63,992 bases of DNA. It comes from Pseudomonadota bacterium (lineage in GTDB: Bacteria; Pseudomonadota; Gammaproteobacteria; Acidiferrobacterales; UBA6901). The position numbers were made by a program, and so were the translations under genes. Shown here in pieces: positions 12,302 through 57,942 of this stretch. Within the stretch, counting starts at the first letter, position 1. Each line of letters starts with the position of its first letter. The notes beneath the pieces are model-generated. The model was not told where the DNA came from. It did not search any database and worked only from the letters and a program-made list of their open reading frames with translations. The stretch is from NCBI GenBank assembly GCA_021785515.1, contig JAJYEX010000011.1, positions 1 to 63,992 of the forward strand. Direction: 5' to 3'.

Positions 12302-12602
12302 ATTAGGATGGCCCGCAGACCACGCCCGCGTAACCGTAACCGGCGGCCCAACGTATGGGCGCTAGCTCTCGATTCAGGCGCGACGCCCATGCCAAGCAGA
12401 CGGCGCATTTCAAGATTATGCACGTCGCTGGAAGTGAGTTTGCATTAACCTCGCCTCATCGTTCATCACAGTCTGTGTCTGGGTCTCGACAAGCTGTTGA
12501 TTGCCGCTGTTTTTCTCGTTAGGTGTTTGCGGGTGAACCGCACCAGACGCCCGTCGGAATCAATGTTGCCCGGAAAACTCCGGCGTGCAGATTCGTGAAG
12601 TG

Positions 12603-51718: not shown

Positions 51719-54103
51719 CTACTTGAACTCGATAAACAGCGCCGAGGTCCAGATTTTGGCATCGTCCACCTGGCGCGCCAGCAGATATACCGGACGGAAG
51801 CCATGCGGTCCGTTCTTCGGTTCGACGTCGAAGTGTCCCGACACCTCGCGTGGCGGCGGTATCTCGCTGATCCGTTCGAATGCCAGGAACATTTCGACGC
51901 CCGGCAGGTCGCGGCGCAATCGGCCATGTTCCAGCAGTTCCTGGCCGGTGATCTCCCACGAGAAAGTGGGGCAGTGTACAAACGGATTGCCCAGGGTCGG
52001 ATCACCGACCTTGACGTAGCCGTCGATAGTCCCTTCCACCCGCAGCACGGCATGGGCGAGATCGGACACATCGATCTCTATGGTATCGACATCGCCGTAG
52101 GTATCGCTGTGGAAGCCGATCTTGGTGGCGCTTTCCCGCCAGCAGGTCTCCTCGACATGTTCGAAACCCGTGCCGACGAAGTCGTTGATGACGCCGCTAA
52201 GAACCGTAATCGTTCCTTTCCAGGTTGCCGCCCGGTAACGGTCCTTCACGCGTGCCCCGCCCCAGCGCAGCCGGATCCGGCGCGGAGAATAGCCCAGCTC
52301 ATGCTGCAGGTCACGGCGCCAGATGGCGCCTCCATGATCATAGGCGACGATCTCGTCCCAGCCGGCGTCGCCCAGAAACCGGTACTCTATTGTGGCCTTG
52401 CCCGTGTGCGGAAACTCATCGCCCATGATGTAGGCGCCGCAACGCGTGAGGCCAAAGCTGCGTTCGCCAGTCGAGGCAAAGGTGTGCCGCGCCCGCAGCG
52501 CCTGGGCGATATCCTTGCGTGTCAGCCCCGGGGAGATCACCCCGGAAATGCCGCCCTTGGTTCCGAAAACGGCGGTGCCGGGCACACCGCCCCCACAGCG
52601 CCCACGGTGTTCGTCCCCGGCCATCGACGCCCCAATCTTGTAGCCGCGTTCCATGGCGTCCTGATACAGCCACCCGAAGTGGCCCCAGGATGAGCCGATC
52701 TCGATGAGCCGTTCGAGTTTCGGGTGGTGCCAGTCGAGAATGCAGCGCCGCCCGCCGACGTGCGGAATCAGCAGATGCCCCTCGGGGTCCTTGGCATACG
52801 CGGCCCAGAGCTCCTCGAGCGGCCAGGCCCCGGGTTCGGCGCGGCTGCCTTTGGTGTCCTCGTTCCAGTCCACTGAACGTACGTGCTCGCCGCTCTTCAG
52901 AAACGGAAACTCCGGTTCGCCGTCGTGGAGGAATACGACATTATGGTCACCGCCGGCGCAGGAGCTGCCGCACCACTCGGTACCGGGGTAGGCGACGAAC
53001 GAGCCGTCGGTGCTGATCTCCCGGATCAGCTTCACAGTCTCCTGCCACCGCTCTGTGGTGATGTTGAAATCGTTGTGTGCGAACGCCAGTACGTCGAGAC
53101 CGGTCACATCGCGCCCGTAGGTCAGGTTGTAGCGCGTGCTGTTGGTGCCGATGGTATCCTCGGAGTGCACGTGCAGGTCGGTATAGTAGATACGGGGCAT
53201 ATCGAGCTTCTTGTCGACAGTGACGTGGAAGGTCTTTGGCTTGACCCGCGGGTGGCCGGACAGGCGGGCAGTTACCGCAAGCTCCCCGGCTTCACGGGTC
53301 GGGAGATCTTCCAGCAACAACACGGCCCAGCCCTTTTTGGCCAGCACAGTCTCCTTTTCGTATGCAAGGTGGCCGTTCAGGGTGGCGCTGATCTCGATCT
53401 GCTCGCCCTGATCCCAGCAGGTATTGCCCCATGCATCTTCAGCCCGCACGCGCAGCGGGAGAGGCTCGCCCGCCCGGACCAGACGCGATCCGGCCCACTG
53501 CAGCTGCGCAGGTGCGCCGGGGACGATCTGGATCACCAGGTCAGGCTGGACAGCCGCGAACCGCGATGTACCGAGCGGGTCGACGTAGCAGCGGATGCGG
53601 AAATTCTCCTCGACGAAGGTCTGCACCCGCGTTCCCGACCCGCCAAAGCGGCGGTCGCCAAGGCGAATGATGATGTGGTCGCCGGCCTTGATATAGCCGT
53701 CGAATGTGTCGACGATCACCGCCTTCTGAAATGGCCGTTCGTGGCCTTTCTGGTCGAACCGGACCTTGATAGCCTGGACGGTCGCGGGGGACTGGCCTGG
53801 AACGAGAGCGCCGGCATGATATTCGGCCGAGATGTAGTTTGCGCCCTTCGGGTTGGTAGTCTGGAACAGGGCCCAGTCAGAGTAGAACCGGAATGTTGCC
53901 TTGAACCAGGAACCGTCTGCCATCCCCGAGGCGCCGACTTCGTAGTCGATGATGATCTCCTGCCAGCTGCCGGCGACGATCTTCTCGACGTTGCACTGAA
54001 CGGTTCCGAGGAACGGCATATCCTTGGTTTTGGCGTACAGCCCTGCAGGGGCGATGTAGCGGCCCAGGCGCTTTTCGAGTTCTGCATCAGTCATTTTTTT
54101 CAT
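51719..54103 (-). CDS. DUF3604 (PHP-like) protein
   Basis: 794 residues. The start at 54103 is chosen because GGAG lies ten bases ahead; an upstream ATG at 54136 has no site. There is no signal peptide, so it is cytoplasmic. The N-terminal half contains beta-sandwich segments; the C-terminal half is PHP-like, with metal-ligand motifs DLHVHSEDTIGT, AFAHNDFN, YPGTEW, LIPHVGGRR and ASMAGDEHRGR. DUF3604 proteins are thought to be metal-dependent hydrolases, but no substrate is known to me. It lies 60 bases downstream of the anion transporter on the same strand, suggesting joint uptake and use of an anionic compound. Confidence 0.8.
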   Translation of the reverse strand: MKKMTDAELEKRLGRYIAPAGLYAKTKDMPFLGTVQCNVEKIVAGSWQEIIIDYEVGASGMADGSWFKATFRFYSDWALFQTTNPKGANYISAEYHAGALVPGQSPATVQAIKVRFDQKGHERPFQKAVIVDTFDGYIKAGDHIIIRLGDRRFGGSGTRVQTFVEENFRIRCYVDPLGTSRFAAVQPDLVIQIVPGAPAQLQWAGSRLVRAGEPLPLRVRAEDAWGNTCWDQGEQIEISATLNGHLAYEKETVLAKKGWAVLLLEDLPTREAGELAVTARLSGHPRVKPKTFHVTVDKKLDMPRIYYTDLHVHSEDTIGTNSTRYNLTYGRDVTGLDVLAFAHNDFNITTERWQETVKLIREISTDGSFVAYPGTEWCGSSCAGGDHNVVFLHDGEPEFPFLKSGEHVRSVDWNEDTKGSRAEPGAWPLEELWAAYAKDPEGHLLIPHVGGRRCILDWHHPKLERLIEIGSSWGHFGWLYQDAMERGYKIGASMAGDEHRGRCGGGVPGTAVFGTKGGISGVISPGLTRKDIAQALRARHTFASTGERSFGLTRCGAYIMGDEFPHTGKATIEYRFLGDAGWDEIVAYDHGGAIWRRDLQHELGYSPRRIRLRWGGARVKDRYRAATWKGTITVLSGVINDFVGTGFEHVEETCWRESATKIGFHSDTYGDVDTIEIDVSDLAHAVLRVEGTIDGYVKVGDPTLGNPFVHCPTFSWEITGQELLEHGRLRRDLPGVEMFLAFERISEIPPPREVSGHFDVEPKNGPHGFRPVYLLARQVDDAKIWTSALFIEFK

Positions 54104-54163
54104 TCGACGAATCTCCTGCGTGAGTCTCTGACACAACCGACCGCGTGCACGCTACCCCCAGTG

Positions 54164-55621
54164 CTACATCGGAAGTCCGATCAGCTTCAGCCACACCGGC
54201 TGGACAAGTATCACGTAGACATTGGCGATGATGGTCAGCGGCGCACCAAATTTGACCGCGTCCCAGCCGGAAGTCCCGGAAGCGCTCCAGGCGATCAGAA
54301 ACGCCGTTATGGAAATAGGCAGAAAGAAGGCGTATTGCATGCAGTTTATGACGACCAGTGAAAAGGGCAGTACATGGACATGCAGCGCGCTGGCCAGCCC
54401 GACCGCCAGGGGCACAAATGCCGCGCCGGCCGCCACCGCGCTGACGATTCCGGCCCGGGGAATGTGAAAGCTGAATATCAGCAGAAACAGCACCGCCAGA
54501 ATCGGTAGGCTGGTGTGATGGAACGGGATGAGCACGCCGTGTGCCACCCAGGTAACCGTGCCCGCCGAATAGAGCGCCATGCCGAGTGAAATTGCGCCGC
54601 CCAGCAGCATGAGCACGTCCCACAGCATGTATTTGTTGATGTCGTCGTACTTGATCCCGCTCCATGGCACGAACATAAGGGACGCCGCCAGTATCGCTGT
54701 CATGCCGGGCTTGATCCAGCCGCCGATCCAGAATGTCATGCCGACGGCGAGGCAGATCAGCGTCCAGATTTCCGGCCAGGTTATGCGTCCCAGCTCCTTT
54801 TTCGTGGCGGCCATGCCCGCCTCGAGACCGGGTATGTCCAGGTTCTTAAGCTTGAAGTAACGGATTACGTAGAGATAGACGATCGGCAGCAGGCCCCAAA
54901 GCGGGAGATTGAGCCAGAACCAGCGTCCCCACGAGATGGTGATATGCTGGGTTGCCTTGAGGTAGGCAGTGAGTATCAGGTTTGGAAACGCACTCGTCAG
55001 CATCAGTGGTCCGATGAACAGCGGGACCAGCCCCGCTATCAGATACATCACGGCGGTATTGATGCGCTTGACCTCCGGCAGGTGTTCCTTCCCTTCAGTC
55101 AGGGATGAGATGCCCTTGCACATGGGCAGAAACAGGGCGCTTTCGTTGACGACTGGAAGAAAGGGTTGTGTGGCCATTTCTGCCAGCATCAACCCCAGCA
55201 GCACCCGGGTTACGCGGTTCGATCGCATCGCAGACGCAACCGAGCAGGTGATTCTTTTCCCGAGCGGTGTGCCCATCATGACAGCCGCGATGGCGAAGGC
55301 GCCGGCGGCGAGAAAGAAGATGTCGGTGTTGAACGCCTTGAAGGCAACGGGGATCTTTGTGCGCGTGAATATCACCAGCAGCAGCGGCGAGGCCAGCCCG
55401 ACCATGGCTTTGGGCAGGGCGCCGGTGACCATGCATAGGATGAACCAGAGAAACACGCCCAGCACCGTCTGTCCTTCAGGCGTCAGGCCCGGGATCGCCG
55501 GACCGTAATGCAACCCGAGCAAGATGGCGAAGGCGGCAAGGAGCCCCATCACTTGCCGCGTACGGGCGCTGGATGTGGCTGACCCGACCGGTGGTGTGGC
55601 ATTGGCTGCTGCAGTATCCAT
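54164..55621 (-). CDS. DASS/SLC13-family anion:Na+ symporter
   Basis: 485 residues with about twelve hydrophobic segments. Near the N-terminus is VLGVFLWFILCMVTGALP, and the substrate-loop signatures appear as PVVNESALFLPMCKG and SASGTSGWDAVKFGAP. The family imports sulfate, di- or tricarboxylates or related anions. It is divergent from the Crp/Fnr regulator and upstream of the DUF3604 gene. Substrate not predictable; a sulfonate, phosphonate or organic acid are all possible. Confidence 0.85.
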   Translation of the reverse strand: MDTAAANATPPVGSATSSARTRQVMGLLAAFAILLGLHYGPAIPGLTPEGQTVLGVFLWFILCMVTGALPKAMVGLASPLLLVIFTRTKIPVAFKAFNTDIFFLAAGAFAIAAVMMGTPLGKRITCSVASAMRSNRVTRVLLGLMLAEMATQPFLPVVNESALFLPMCKGISSLTEGKEHLPEVKRINTAVMYLIAGLVPLFIGPLMLTSAFPNLILTAYLKATQHITISWGRWFWLNLPLWGLLPIVYLYVIRYFKLKNLDIPGLEAGMAATKKELGRITWPEIWTLICLAVGMTFWIGGWIKPGMTAILAASLMFVPWSGIKYDDINKYMLWDVLMLLGGAISLGMALYSAGTVTWVAHGVLIPFHHTSLPILAVLFLLIFSFHIPRAGIVSAVAAGAAFVPLAVGLASALHVHVLPFSLVVINCMQYAFFLPISITAFLIAWSASGTSGWDAVKFGAPLTIIANVYVILVQPVWLKLIGLPM

Positions 55622-55683
55622 GTCTTAATCCCCTGTGCGCTGTTGGGTCATTGCAAGTCTGCCCGCCTTGGATCTATTTCCTT

Positions 55684-55701
55684 GATACCGACATCAGTAT
55701 C
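55684..55701. promoter_or_regulatory. Palindrome upstream of the anion transporter
   Basis: GATAC-N8-GTATC, within the 267-base divergent region. A candidate operator for the neighbouring Crp/Fnr-type regulator; it does not fit the FNR consensus TTGAT-N4-ATCAA. Confidence 0.3.
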
Positions 55702-55745
55702 TAGAATGAGGATAGCGGAAGTCTTGATGACGGAATGTCGTGGGA

Positions 55746-55760
55746 GTGACAACCGGTCAC
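55746..55760. promoter_or_regulatory. Palindrome GTGAC-N5-GTCAC in the same divergent region
   Basis: A perfect 5-bp inverted repeat with a five-base centre, resembling half-sites of the CRP type (TGTGA/TCACA) with altered spacing. It lies 128 bases before the regulator start and 125 bases before the transporter start. Confidence 0.4.
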
Positions 55761-55888
55761 ATGGGCGCGGTATGCTGCTGCGGTGCGCAAGCAGCGGAGA
55801 TCTTGCGGAAAAATGTCGTGTGGCTGACAATCCTGTGCGCAGGGCCTGATCGATACTGGCAAAGGGACCGTACCCGGAGGGTTGCGCG

Positions 55889-56605
55889 ATGTTCGAAGGG
55901 CTTGATTCACCATGCGCGGCTGGCGACCCGGCCTTTACGGCGCCGTCGGACATTTTTTCCCGGATCAGTGCCGGGGATTTCGCCGATCTGCTGGCGCTTG
56001 CCACGGTTCGCCGTGTCGACAAGGGGGAGTTCATTTTCCGGGCGGGGGATGCAGGCCGGAATGTCTACTTTCTGCGCGAGGGGCGGGTCAAGATCTACCA
56101 GGCGTCGGCGCTTGGCCGGGAGGTAATCCTCTGGTTCTGTTTCCCGGGGGAGATTTTCGGGCTGACCGAGGTGGTGGAGGGTGGGGGCAGGGTGGTGAAC
56201 GCCCAGTCCTGCGAGCGGGCGGAAGTGCTGTGCATCGCGCGCACCCAGTTCAAGGATTACCTCGCCTCCCACAGCGCTGTATCGTTCGTGATCATGCAGG
56301 CGCTGTCGTGTCGAATGCGGGTTCTGGGCGACATGCTGGTCAACCTGATCGATGACGACGTGAACAGCCGTGTCACCAAGCTCATGTTGCGGCTGAGCGC
56401 CTGTCACGGAACCCGGGTCGGTGATGAGATTCATCTCAACATCCGCATGACGCACCAGGAGATCGCCGATATGGTGGGCACGGCCCGCCAGACGGTCACC
56501 AAGGTTCTCAGCGAACTAAAGCAGCAGGGATTGCTTAGCATAGAAAATCACCGCATCCGGATCCGCAGCCCGGAACTGCTGAACGAGCATTCGCGACCCA
56601 CCTGA
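55889..56605 (+). CDS. Crp/Fnr-family transcriptional regulator
   Basis: 238 residues. A cyclic-nucleotide-binding-like domain (about 25-140) has GEFIFRAGDAGRNVYFLREGRVKIY; a long dimer helix follows, then the winged helix MTHQEIADMVGTARQTVTKVLSEL. Only one Cys lies in the N-terminal region, so it is not an [4Fe-4S] FNR. The recognition helix has RQTVTK where CRP has RETVGR, so Glu is replaced by Gln and Arg by Lys: its target is probably neither a CRP nor an FNR box. GGAGGG precedes the ATG. Divergent from the transporter it may control. Confidence 0.9.
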   Translation: MFEGLDSPCAAGDPAFTAPSDIFSRISAGDFADLLALATVRRVDKGEFIFRAGDAGRNVYFLREGRVKIYQASALGREVILWFCFPGEIFGLTEVVEGGGRVVNAQSCERAEVLCIARTQFKDYLASHSAVSFVIMQALSCRMRVLGDMLVNLIDDDVNSRVTKLMLRLSACHGTRVGDEIHLNIRMTHQEIADMVGTARQTVTKVLSELKQQGLLSIENHRIRIRSPELLNEHSRPT

Positions 56606-56615
56606 GCTGGCGTTC

Positions 56616-57593
56616 CTATTCGTCCGGACGCAGAAGGCCGTGTCCGTGATAAATTTCCGTAACCCGAGAACTCATCATGTGGTCCAGCAGCAGCCGGCCC
56701 CAGCGCCCGCCATCGCCGACCATGCCGGCATGGAAGCGGCTTGTGACATTCCAGGGACTGGAGTCAGGTTGCGGGTTGCGGCCGTCGAGCGCGACAATCT
56801 CGAAGAACTTGGGAAAGATGCGCGTATAGCGCAGGGCGAGATGGTAATAAAGTATGGCCACATCGGCCTGCCCCGAGGCGATCGCCTGTGGCGCCTCGCG
56901 GTGATGGATCGTCTGTCCGTGCAGGACCTGCCCGTCGGTACCGAGCAGCCTCGCGGCCATCGCGGCCGCATCGAGTTTCCTTATCCGGCATAGCTGCAGC
57001 AACGTATCTCGGTAGACCGCGTGGCTCGCCGCCTCGGTATGCGGATTGGAAATGAACAGTCGCACGTCGTCGCGGCACAGCGCGCCGATGTCGTGGACCA
57101 GCTTCGGGTTTCCTTTCCGTACCAGCAGCACGTTCCCGCGGCTGCGCATGAAGGGCGCATGGCTGACCGGGCGACCGGACCGGGCCAGCTGATCGAAGAA
57201 TTCGGGTGGGCTGATCAGGAGCTGGGGGGTCAGCGGCAGACGCAGGTTTGCAAGGCGCAGGGCACCGTGCTGCAGGATCTGCAGCAGCAGCGGGGGTGGC
57301 AGGGTGGCGTAGAATACCCCGCCGCTGTCTGGGTGAGCACCTGTGAACTCCTGCAGCGCCTGTCCAAGCGCCATGTGGTGATTGCCGTCCGACAGGACGG
57401 TCACGCCGGCCTGTACCGGGTCGCCGTGGAAATCGAGCGCGATGTTCGAGCCGGGATGGAACCACAGCGCGTCATCGGGTGCGGTCGGCCAGGGGATTTC
57501 AGGTGGCCACGAAAGCCGGTCTGCTGTCATGAATGTGCGCGCGGAATCCGTGGATGCCGGCGCGGGCGGTTTTTTGCGGGGCTGATCGTTCAT
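56616..57593 (-). CDS. Substrate-binding-fold (PBP2-like) protein without signal peptide
   Basis: 325 residues from the ATG at 57591-57593 (another in-frame ATG 21 residues later is possible). GNVLLVRKGNPKLVHDI, DVRLFISNPHTEAASHAVYRD and HHREAPQAIASGQADVAILYYHLAL follow the order of ModA/AcfC-type periplasmic binding proteins. There is no hydrophobic signal, only a Pro-rich start, so it may act in the cytoplasm as a sensor or ligand-binding partner. No ABC permease adjoins it. The ligand is unknown; an oxyanion is a guess from the ModA likeness. Confidence 0.65.
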   Translation of the reverse strand: MNDQPRKKPPAPASTDSARTFMTADRLSWPPEIPWPTAPDDALWFHPGSNIALDFHGDPVQAGVTVLSDGNHHMALGQALQEFTGAHPDSGGVFYATLPPPLLLQILQHGALRLANLRLPLTPQLLISPPEFFDQLARSGRPVSHAPFMRSRGNVLLVRKGNPKLVHDIGALCRDDVRLFISNPHTEAASHAVYRDTLLQLCRIRKLDAAAMAARLLGTDGQVLHGQTIHHREAPQAIASGQADVAILYYHLALRYTRIFPKFFEIVALDGRNPQPDSSPWNVTSRFHAGMVGDGGRWGRLLLDHMMSSRVTEIYHGHGLLRPDE

Positions 57594-57609
57594 CGCAGGC
57601 GCCCTGTGC

Positions 57610-57942
57610 TCAGCGCGATTTTGCGCGCAGGGCCTCATCGTTGAAAGCGCCATCGATCGCATGGATGATTTGCTCAAGCATGCGGAACCCGTCCACCGGC
57701 GCATCGTCTTTCATGTACTGAAGCCGCAAAGGTCCCAGGGCTGTGATGCTGGCGGCACGATCTACCGTCGATTCCTCGCCGGAGCAGTGGTTGCCTTCGG
57801 CTATACCCCGGATGATGGCACCAGCCAGCGCGTTGCCGTGCCGGTCAGCGAGCGCCTTGGTCAGCGTGTCTCCTGGCGGGCCATCGAGGATGTCGAAGGC
57901 GGTGTTCCGGTCCAGATACTGCAGCAGCTCAGCAAGCGTCAT
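57610..57942 (-). CDS. Hypothetical 110-residue protein
   Basis: A soluble, acidic protein beginning MTLAELLQYLDRNTAFDILD, predicted mostly helical, with a single Cys near 53. GGTGGG precedes the ATG. It lies 16 bases ahead of the binding-fold gene on the same strand, so the two are probably co-transcribed. I recognise no family. Confidence 0.55.
   Translation of the reverse strand: MTLAELLQYLDRNTAFDILDGPPGDTLTKALADRHGNALAGAIIRGIAEGNHCSGEESTVDRAASITALGPLRLQYMKDDAPVDGFRMLEQIIHAIDGAFNDEALRAKSR

Follow-up and report, generated by a model that had tools for sequence, protein, structure and literature searches.

A conserved module around a PHP-fold enzyme that may import and process a small organosulfur acid in sulfur-oxidising Proteobacteria

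Do five neighbouring genes at positions 51719-57942 of one gammaproteobacterial contig work together and, if so, on what? They lie in a stretch of 63,992 nucleotides (the window) from a member of the Acidiferrobacterales (assembly GCA_021785515.1, contig JAJYEX010000011.1), and an earlier note had read them as a DUF3604 hydrolase, a DASS transporter, a Crp-type regulator, a ModA-like protein and a 110-residue protein that might take up and degrade an anionic metabolite. A check of open reading frame positions confirmed all five genes. Comparison with related loci shows that four of them, predicted to encode an enzyme, a cytosolic binding protein, a regulator and an importer, recur together, that the regulator and the importer/enzyme operon share a candidate operator, TGTC-N8-GACA, and that most tested carriers have genes for Dsr and/or a Soe-like complex. 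As judged from gene content, the four are a conserved module and their arrangement is far beyond chance. The function that we infer for it, including substrate and reaction, is the import and processing of a small acid, most likely a short-chain organosulfonate or a similar organosulfur acid, in sulfur-oxidising Proteobacteria, with a probability of roughly 0.4.

The locus comprises, in window coordinates:

51719-54136, minus strand: open frame of the PHP/DUF3604-like gene
51719..54103, minus strand: predicted PHP-fold metalloenzyme with N-terminal beta-sandwich domains, a weak DUF3604 member of ~794 residues, no signal peptide seen
54164..55621, minus strand: predicted DASS-superfamily anion importer, the window's form of an exchangeable importer
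55736..55751, no strand: candidate operator TGTC-N8-GACA, copy 1, in the importer/regulator gap
55814..55829, no strand: candidate operator TGTC-N8-GACA, copy 2
55889..56605, plus strand: Crp/Fnr-type regulator with an invariant Arg-Gln in the recognition helix and a Cys84/Cys108 pair
56616..57593, minus strand: predicted cytosolic type II periplasmic-binding-fold protein (SBP_bac_11; fold like those of ModA, sulfate-binding protein, PEB3 and AcfC)
57610..57942, minus strand: 110-residue frame ahead of the binding protein, outside the wider module

The most likely start of the enzyme is the ATG at 54103, because its relatives open with MKKxTxxEL in the alignment consensus. As noted earlier, importer and enzyme are adjacent on one strand (minus, the importer 60 bp from this start), and the regulator, on the plus strand, is divergent from them.

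Recurrence of the four genes and a shared operator

A scan of one genome per species (84,980 species) gave 282 relatives of the enzyme, the best 80 of which were analysed. These are 61-83% identical and come from Alpha-, Beta- and Gammaproteobacteria, including Acidiferrobacterales, Thiobacillus, Sulfuritalea, Rhodocyclales, Chromatiales, Ectothiorhodospiraceae, Arenicellales, Hyphomicrobiales and others. Of the 81 loci that these make with the window, 47 contain the regulator family and 46 the binding protein; many of the relatives are draft genomes with short contigs, and where at least 5 kb is available on each side (37 loci), 29 show the regulator, 25 the binding protein and 21 both (within six genes). 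Such adjacency counts are approximate, because genes in the fetched loci were called by our own codon-score script. Within the window's order (57 genomes) the enzyme matches at E 1e-3 or better in 27 genomes; 21 of these, the window's own included, have a full-length copy with at least 68% identity, and two more have a split one; the 27 neighbourhoods (26 fetched and the window) hold the regulator family in 17 and the DASS family also in 17.

Of 369 evenly sampled gammaproteobacterial genomes, 18 have the enzyme (at least 63% identity), 16 the binding protein (more than 300 bits) and 15 both (Fisher 7e-23, uncorrected for kinship). The sole genome with the binding protein only (G241) has its locus, L197, on a contig that stops directly after TctC; three have the enzyme only, namely G293, G371 and G089, the last with a weaker binding-protein match (192 bits). 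Some loci are close kin, e.g. four Thiobacillus-like ones, so that neither the Fisher values nor the operator count given below represent independent events. Two loci in unexpected records, L108 ('Spirochaetia' bin) and L078 ('Rhizobium' bin), hold the module and dsrA, and the enzyme of L078 is nearly identical to that of Thiobacillus; these records look mis-binned or misnamed.

The earlier note would have been overturned by a neighbourhood kept nowhere else; it recurs across three classes of Proteobacteria. Of its five co-occurring families, enzyme, binding protein, regulator and importer hold, and the 110-residue protein does not: it gave nothing in Pfam or NCBIfam at E 0.1, its relatives in the neighbourhoods fetched come from two genomes of the window's genus only, and it was rejected as a module part. 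NtrBC, UbiH-type, PepP, gyrase and topoisomerase-like neighbours, named by eye, were taken as flanking genes on the basis of their spread.

The candidate operator was counted at the 44 loci whose regulator has a divergent neighbour. TGTC-N8-GACA lies between the two genes in 38 of these (related) loci, as compared with a mean of 0.12 and a maximum of 1 in 200 rounds of first-order simulated sequences; alternative spacings from 0 to 15 gave at most 4. The site is retained with different neighbours: DASS (14/14), a small gene of family f8 before DASS (10/12), TctC (7/7), an ABC system (2/2), the enzyme itself (4/7) and other cases (1/2). The regulator-neighbour gap has no TGTC-N8-GACA in the other six of the 44 (L058, L094, L111, L116, L117 and L121). 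When all 81 loci are counted, a site lies no more than 400 bp upstream of a module gene in 58. The 1.31 Mb of sequence holds 81 sites, 70 of them in such positions, and four control palindromes with identical base composition are each found 6 to 15 times.

Further candidate sites were set aside. A third TGTC-N8-GACA in the window (12476-12491) fails the wider consensus, and a wider regulon in the window's genome was rejected, the pattern TGTCRNYYNNNYGACA giving 6 hits there versus 4 for a control pattern. One extra TGTCRNYYNNNYGACA hit lies ~25 bp upstream of a sensor-like gene (G000:C1:72144); it was treated as chance because the other 29 loci with relatives of that gene have no TGTC-N8-GACA (2-4 kb each). 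A chance-level operator hit is also seen in L150 (G000:C22:62459-65474), between YeeE/TusA/DsrE-type genes, assigned by eye, and a histidine-kinase-like gene.

Predicted properties of the module proteins

The regulator belongs to the Crp/Fnr proteins, scoring above cut-off with cNMP_binding (74.6 bits) and HTH_Crp_2 (65.4 bits), and falls below the equivalog or subfamily cut-offs for CRP (74.4 of 266), FNR (65.5 of 228) and NtcA (89.7 of 244.95). The recognition helix, earlier described as unusual, has Arg200-Gln201 in all 47 orthologues, the next residue being Thr in 40 and Ser in 7; presumably the same Gln sets operator specificity in CooA. The Cys84/Cys108 pair is present in 37 orthologues, both residues are missing in 7, and Cys84 stands alone in 3. 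The regulator probably binds TGTC-N8-GACA. This pattern equals the operator published for CooA, a carbon monoxide-sensing Crp/Fnr regulator, as excerpted from PMC7306483 (TGTC-N8-GACA) and PMC545781 (consensus TGTCGGCNNGCCGACA). CooA differs in that it is not the closest solved relative of the regulator, the closest solved matches being other Crp/Fnr proteins (3d0s, 90.9 bits; CooA-1, 2hkx, 46.9 bits), and no carbon monoxide genes were recognised beside the module.

The importer of the window is a DASS-superfamily member (Na_sulph_symp profile, 114 versus a cut-off of 27) that lies below the cut-off of the curated DASS subfamily TIGR00785 (145 versus 198.6). In the 81 loci the importer near the enzyme is of the window's DASS kind (at least 65% identity) in 8, window included, another DASS, just 25-33% identical to the window's, in 33, TctABC in 17 and an Ssu/Tau-type ABC system in 14 (the ABC label of L126 being weak), with none seen in 9, partly owing to contig ends. 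A quick maximum-likelihood tree of the enzyme, with 72 labelled rows, requires no fewer than 16 switches of importer class, a count made without a shuffle control. The ABC parts of L044 and L045 score highest against taurine/sulfonate transport models, under the curated cut-offs. As assigned from sequence, three unrelated importer kinds, DASS in two groups, TctABC and Ssu/Tau-type ABC, fill one slot, and the anion uptake proposed earlier is well supported by this.

Family f8 (e.g. L067:7814-8395), a 194-residue, exported-looking protein, is present in 13 of the 81 loci, mostly between regulator and DASS and largely in Betaproteobacteria; in L048, a relative of f8 by eye has a weak Cache match under the cut-off. 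Seven of the 81 loci contain lone PhnD-like proteins, with one to three copies per locus.

The binding protein has the type II binding-protein fold (SBP_bac_11, PF13531, 47.0 versus a cut-off of 25). Its model, with a mean predicted local distance difference test score (pLDDT) of 87.8, resembles 4kd5 (Z 20.8), ModA (6nio, Z 19.8) and a sulfate-binding protein (1sbp, Z 18.9), with AcfC and PEB3 as further structural neighbours. The lack of a signal peptide, already remarked on, is borne out: no export signal was seen by eye in the window protein or in a 35-row orthologue alignment, where a WPxE motif close to the N terminus is invariant. By eye, the five remote paralogues examined have a signal-like N terminus; a paralogue in the window's genome with such an N terminus (G000:C9:123859-124794, in L138:9695-10810) adjoins a PhnD-like (Phosphonate-bd) protein.

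The enzyme scores above the gathering cut-off of DUF3604 (PF12228, 23.2 versus 20.4 bits) in a Pfam profile search, the alignment covering just residues 526-559, and below the curated cut-off of the CehA/McbA metallohydrolases (NF038032, 27.2 versus 80). A sequence search against the PDB gave no match at E 1, a profile search gave a single weak match (E 0.81), and the best 50 Foldseek matches of the whole enzyme contain no PHP protein. The model (mean pLDDT 85.9) combines a PHP domain with beta domains at the N terminus, and a second structure aligner, not Foldseek, identified the PHP fold: the best match is the PHP-like 3e38 (Z 17.5, root-mean-square deviation (rmsd) 3.5 over 221 residues), the catalytic domain matches PsfC (7rty) with Z 14.5, rmsd 3.4 over 201 residues and 18% identity, and lower-ranking matches are other folds with Z of at most 12.3. 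Numbered from TDAEL, the putative metal-site residues are conserved in nearly all of 39 rows (H307 in 38, H309 in 37, and E372, H444, D493 and H495 in 39); which of the conserved His, Asp and Glu residues bind metal is suggested by the motif. Fold and residues together make degradation of the substrate by the enzyme plausible. A distant DUF3604 relative (27%) lies inside an ABC transporter cluster with metallophosphatase-family and sulfatase-family genes (L050:6418-10009).

The link to sulfur oxidation

Neither the link to sulfur oxidation, nor importer exchange, nor the shared operator figured in the earlier note. In the 369 genomes, dsrA (E 1e-80) is present in 15 of the 18 enzyme carriers versus 117 overall, 112 of these over the family cut-off, and a SoeA-like protein (E 1e-180) in 14 of the 18 versus 106 overall. 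Sixteen carriers have at least one of the two; the other two carriers are G233, 72% complete, and G371, 79% complete. A second set comprised 50 named carriers from the 80 loci, the rest being 14 loci of the window's order, for which dsrA was covered separately, and 16 short, cut or kin loci. Here dsrA (E 1e-60) was found in 41 (40 over the cut-off), a SoeA-like oxidoreductase in 43 and at least one in 48; seven of the nine carriers without dsrA have the SoeA-like protein, and the genomes of L096 and L126 have neither.

In four of these nine dsrA-negative carriers the module itself stands beside relevant genes. In three (L101, L122 and L127, in genomes without a dsrA match) it adjoins a three-gene molybdopterin oxidoreductase set, which we read as SoeABC-like, a name of our own, as no curated SoeA model matched and the set hit only molybdopterin, iron-sulfur and DmsC-type families. 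The order in L127 is binding protein, TauE-family protein, three SoeABC-like genes, regulator, DASS, enzyme. In the fourth, L096, the module adjoins xsc, ald, an omega-aminotransferase gene and tauA, all above curated cut-offs. The TauE family, which according to an excerpt of PMC5373536 is a sulfite exporter, is found in L127, L092 and L188, Sulf_transp with a rhodanese in L187, and a rhodanese in L196; L187, L188 and L196 lie outside the 81 loci.

Dsr as the sole explanation was rejected. In the window's order dsrA is found in 52 of 57 genomes at E 1e-3 (43 over the cut-off) and fails to separate carriers from non-carriers; being near-universal there, it cannot explain enzyme carriage, seen in 27 of the 57. 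The window's genome has two full-length dsrA copies above the family cut-off (G000:C18:45309-46493 and G000:C11:636750-637937), as do some other genomes of the order, e.g. G050 and G041.

Candidate substrates, rival explanations and known systems

The SoeABC-like genes, TauE, the taurine pathway and the Dsr- or Soe-like carriers, taken together, point to a short sulfonate as the likeliest substrate and to sulfite as the form in which its sulfur most likely ends up. The importer, of one kind or another, would bring the small acid into the cytoplasm, where the enzyme, by means of its PHP metal site, may hydrolyse or oxidatively cleave it. The sulfur would end as cytosolic sulfite, to be passed to SoeABC or other sulfite-oxidising enzymes, or removed by TauE-type exporters. 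The binding protein would bind the substrate or an anionic product, and may act as a cytosolic sensor or buffer, because it has no visible export signal. The regulator would switch the importer and the enzyme operon at the operator, perhaps in response to a ligand at the Cys84/Cys108 region or to the redox state of that region. A bolder version, which we consider unlikely, would make the PHP-fold protein a metal-dependent enzyme of a new kind, cleaving the C-S bond of a C2-C4 sulfonate or releasing its sulfur in one step, and the entry to an undescribed organosulfonate route of Dsr/Soe chemolithotrophs, with a Crp-type regulator using the operator of CooA and a cytosolic sensor of periplasmic-binding fold.

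Several points weigh against an organosulfur acid, or against the module as described. DASS and TctABC importers mostly carry carboxylates. Sulfur genes beside the module are rare in the 81 loci (SoeABC-like 3, xsc 1, TsuA-like 1, TauE 2), the TsuA-like protein in L079 is below cut-offs (124 of 400), and the Soe name is self-given. The taurine pathway in L096 looks complete, so the enzyme need not act on taurine; that genome is one of the two with neither marker, and the short upstream stretch examined in L096 has no operator site. Of the 81 loci, 23 lack a site upstream of a module gene, some due to contig ends. The Rhodomicrobium module (L095/L190) adjoins an NAD-type formate dehydrogenase (TIGR01591, 964 bits), only 9 of the 27 neighbourhoods of the window's own order hold the binding protein, and the near-universal dsrA of that order leaves enzyme carriage there unexplained.

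Some of these observations favour a sulfur-free organic acid. A plain carboxylate is a possible substrate, and it may be that the module takes up a dicarboxylate, ester, amide or carbamate and hydrolyses it as a supplementary carbon source, the sulfur link then reflecting shared habitat. DASS and TctABC are best known for carboxylates, formate dehydrogenase genes adjoin the Rhodomicrobium module, and the nearest curated family, though far below its cut-off, is CehA/McbA, whose members are carbamate and ester hydrolases. However, the third importer type is closest to taurine/sulfonate systems, neighbours include SoeABC-like genes, xsc, TauE and Sulf_transp, and the enzyme is enriched in carriers of dsrA and SoeA-like proteins; on balance we regard a sulfur-free acid as rather unlikely. 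A role in inorganic sulfur oxidation, in which the importer moves sulfite, thiosulfate or polythionate while a by-product or thio-adduct of Dsr/Soe turnover serves as the enzyme's substrate, would account for a distribution that follows Dsr and Soe-like carriers, and would fit the molybdate- and sulfate-binding fold neighbours of the binding protein and the sub-threshold TsuA-like neighbour in L079. Such a role is improbable: TctABC importers are not known to carry inorganic sulfur anions, 9 of the 50 named carriers show no dsrA, and 30 of the 57 genomes of an almost wholly dsrA-positive order have no enzyme match, so that the enzyme is not needed for Dsr oxidation. That the genes are neighbours by chance or general synteny, which the very large and common DASS and regulator families might suggest, is refuted for enzyme, binding protein, regulator and importer by the finding that 15 of 369 genomes hold both enzyme and binding protein (18 hold the first and 16 the second), by an operator kept through importer exchange and by recurrence in three classes, and stands for the 110-residue frame.

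The organosulfur reading can also be set against described systems. Sulfonate dissimilation operons, exemplified by those for taurine (tauR, tpa, ald, xsc, tauABC, tauE) and sulfolactate (slc, suy), similarly combine a specific importer, a cytosolic enzyme, a regulator and, in places, a sulfite exporter or oxidase; one module locus (L096) adjoins a taurine set. By contrast, the core enzyme of the module is predicted to be of PHP fold, not Xsc, SuyAB or CuyA, and its regulator is Crp-type. With CehA/McbA and DUF3604 proteins the enzyme shares PHP-type metal motifs, and it exceeds the DUF3604 gathering score, whereas its alignment to DUF3604 spans just 34 residues, it falls far short of the CehA/McbA cut-off, it has large beta domains at the N terminus and its carriers are sulfur oxidisers. 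In the literature searches made, DUF3604 surfaced in a single paper, which dealt with Chlamydia mutants.

PsfC, from fosfomycin biosynthesis in Pseudomonas, is alike in catalytic-domain fold; by contrast identity is 18%, sequence searches of the PDB missed it and its context is different, so its reaction is not transferable to the enzyme. According to an excerpt of a preprint (PMC12871164), PsfC uses a dinuclear iron site to convert a phosphonate acid; by analogy, the likeness shows that a PHP fold can handle such acids and nothing further. The Sox-Dsr-Soe core pathway overlaps with the module in host range, and SoeABC-like genes adjoin the module in three loci; unlike that pathway the module is optional, and it is not among the components named in the excerpted part of PMC6397845. 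The literature searches made found nothing joining dsrAB, sulfur oxidation and a PHP domain.

Of the interpretation given earlier, anion import and a conserved neighbourhood are retained and membership of the 110-residue protein is lost. All module parts are, by their profile matches, from known families; no description of their combination, of the enzyme subfamily or of the operator-regulator pairing was found in the literature searches made. The exchange of importers beneath one conserved operator suggests that selection keeps the substrate, not the transporter. Isolates that carry the module, e.g. Thiobacillus thioparus DSM 505 and Rhodomicrobium sp. R_RK_3, make it testable. Sulfur oxidisers are usually described via inorganic sulfur pathways alone; a conserved, regulated uptake module, with 282 enzyme relatives in one scan, points to a common substrate that may have been missed.

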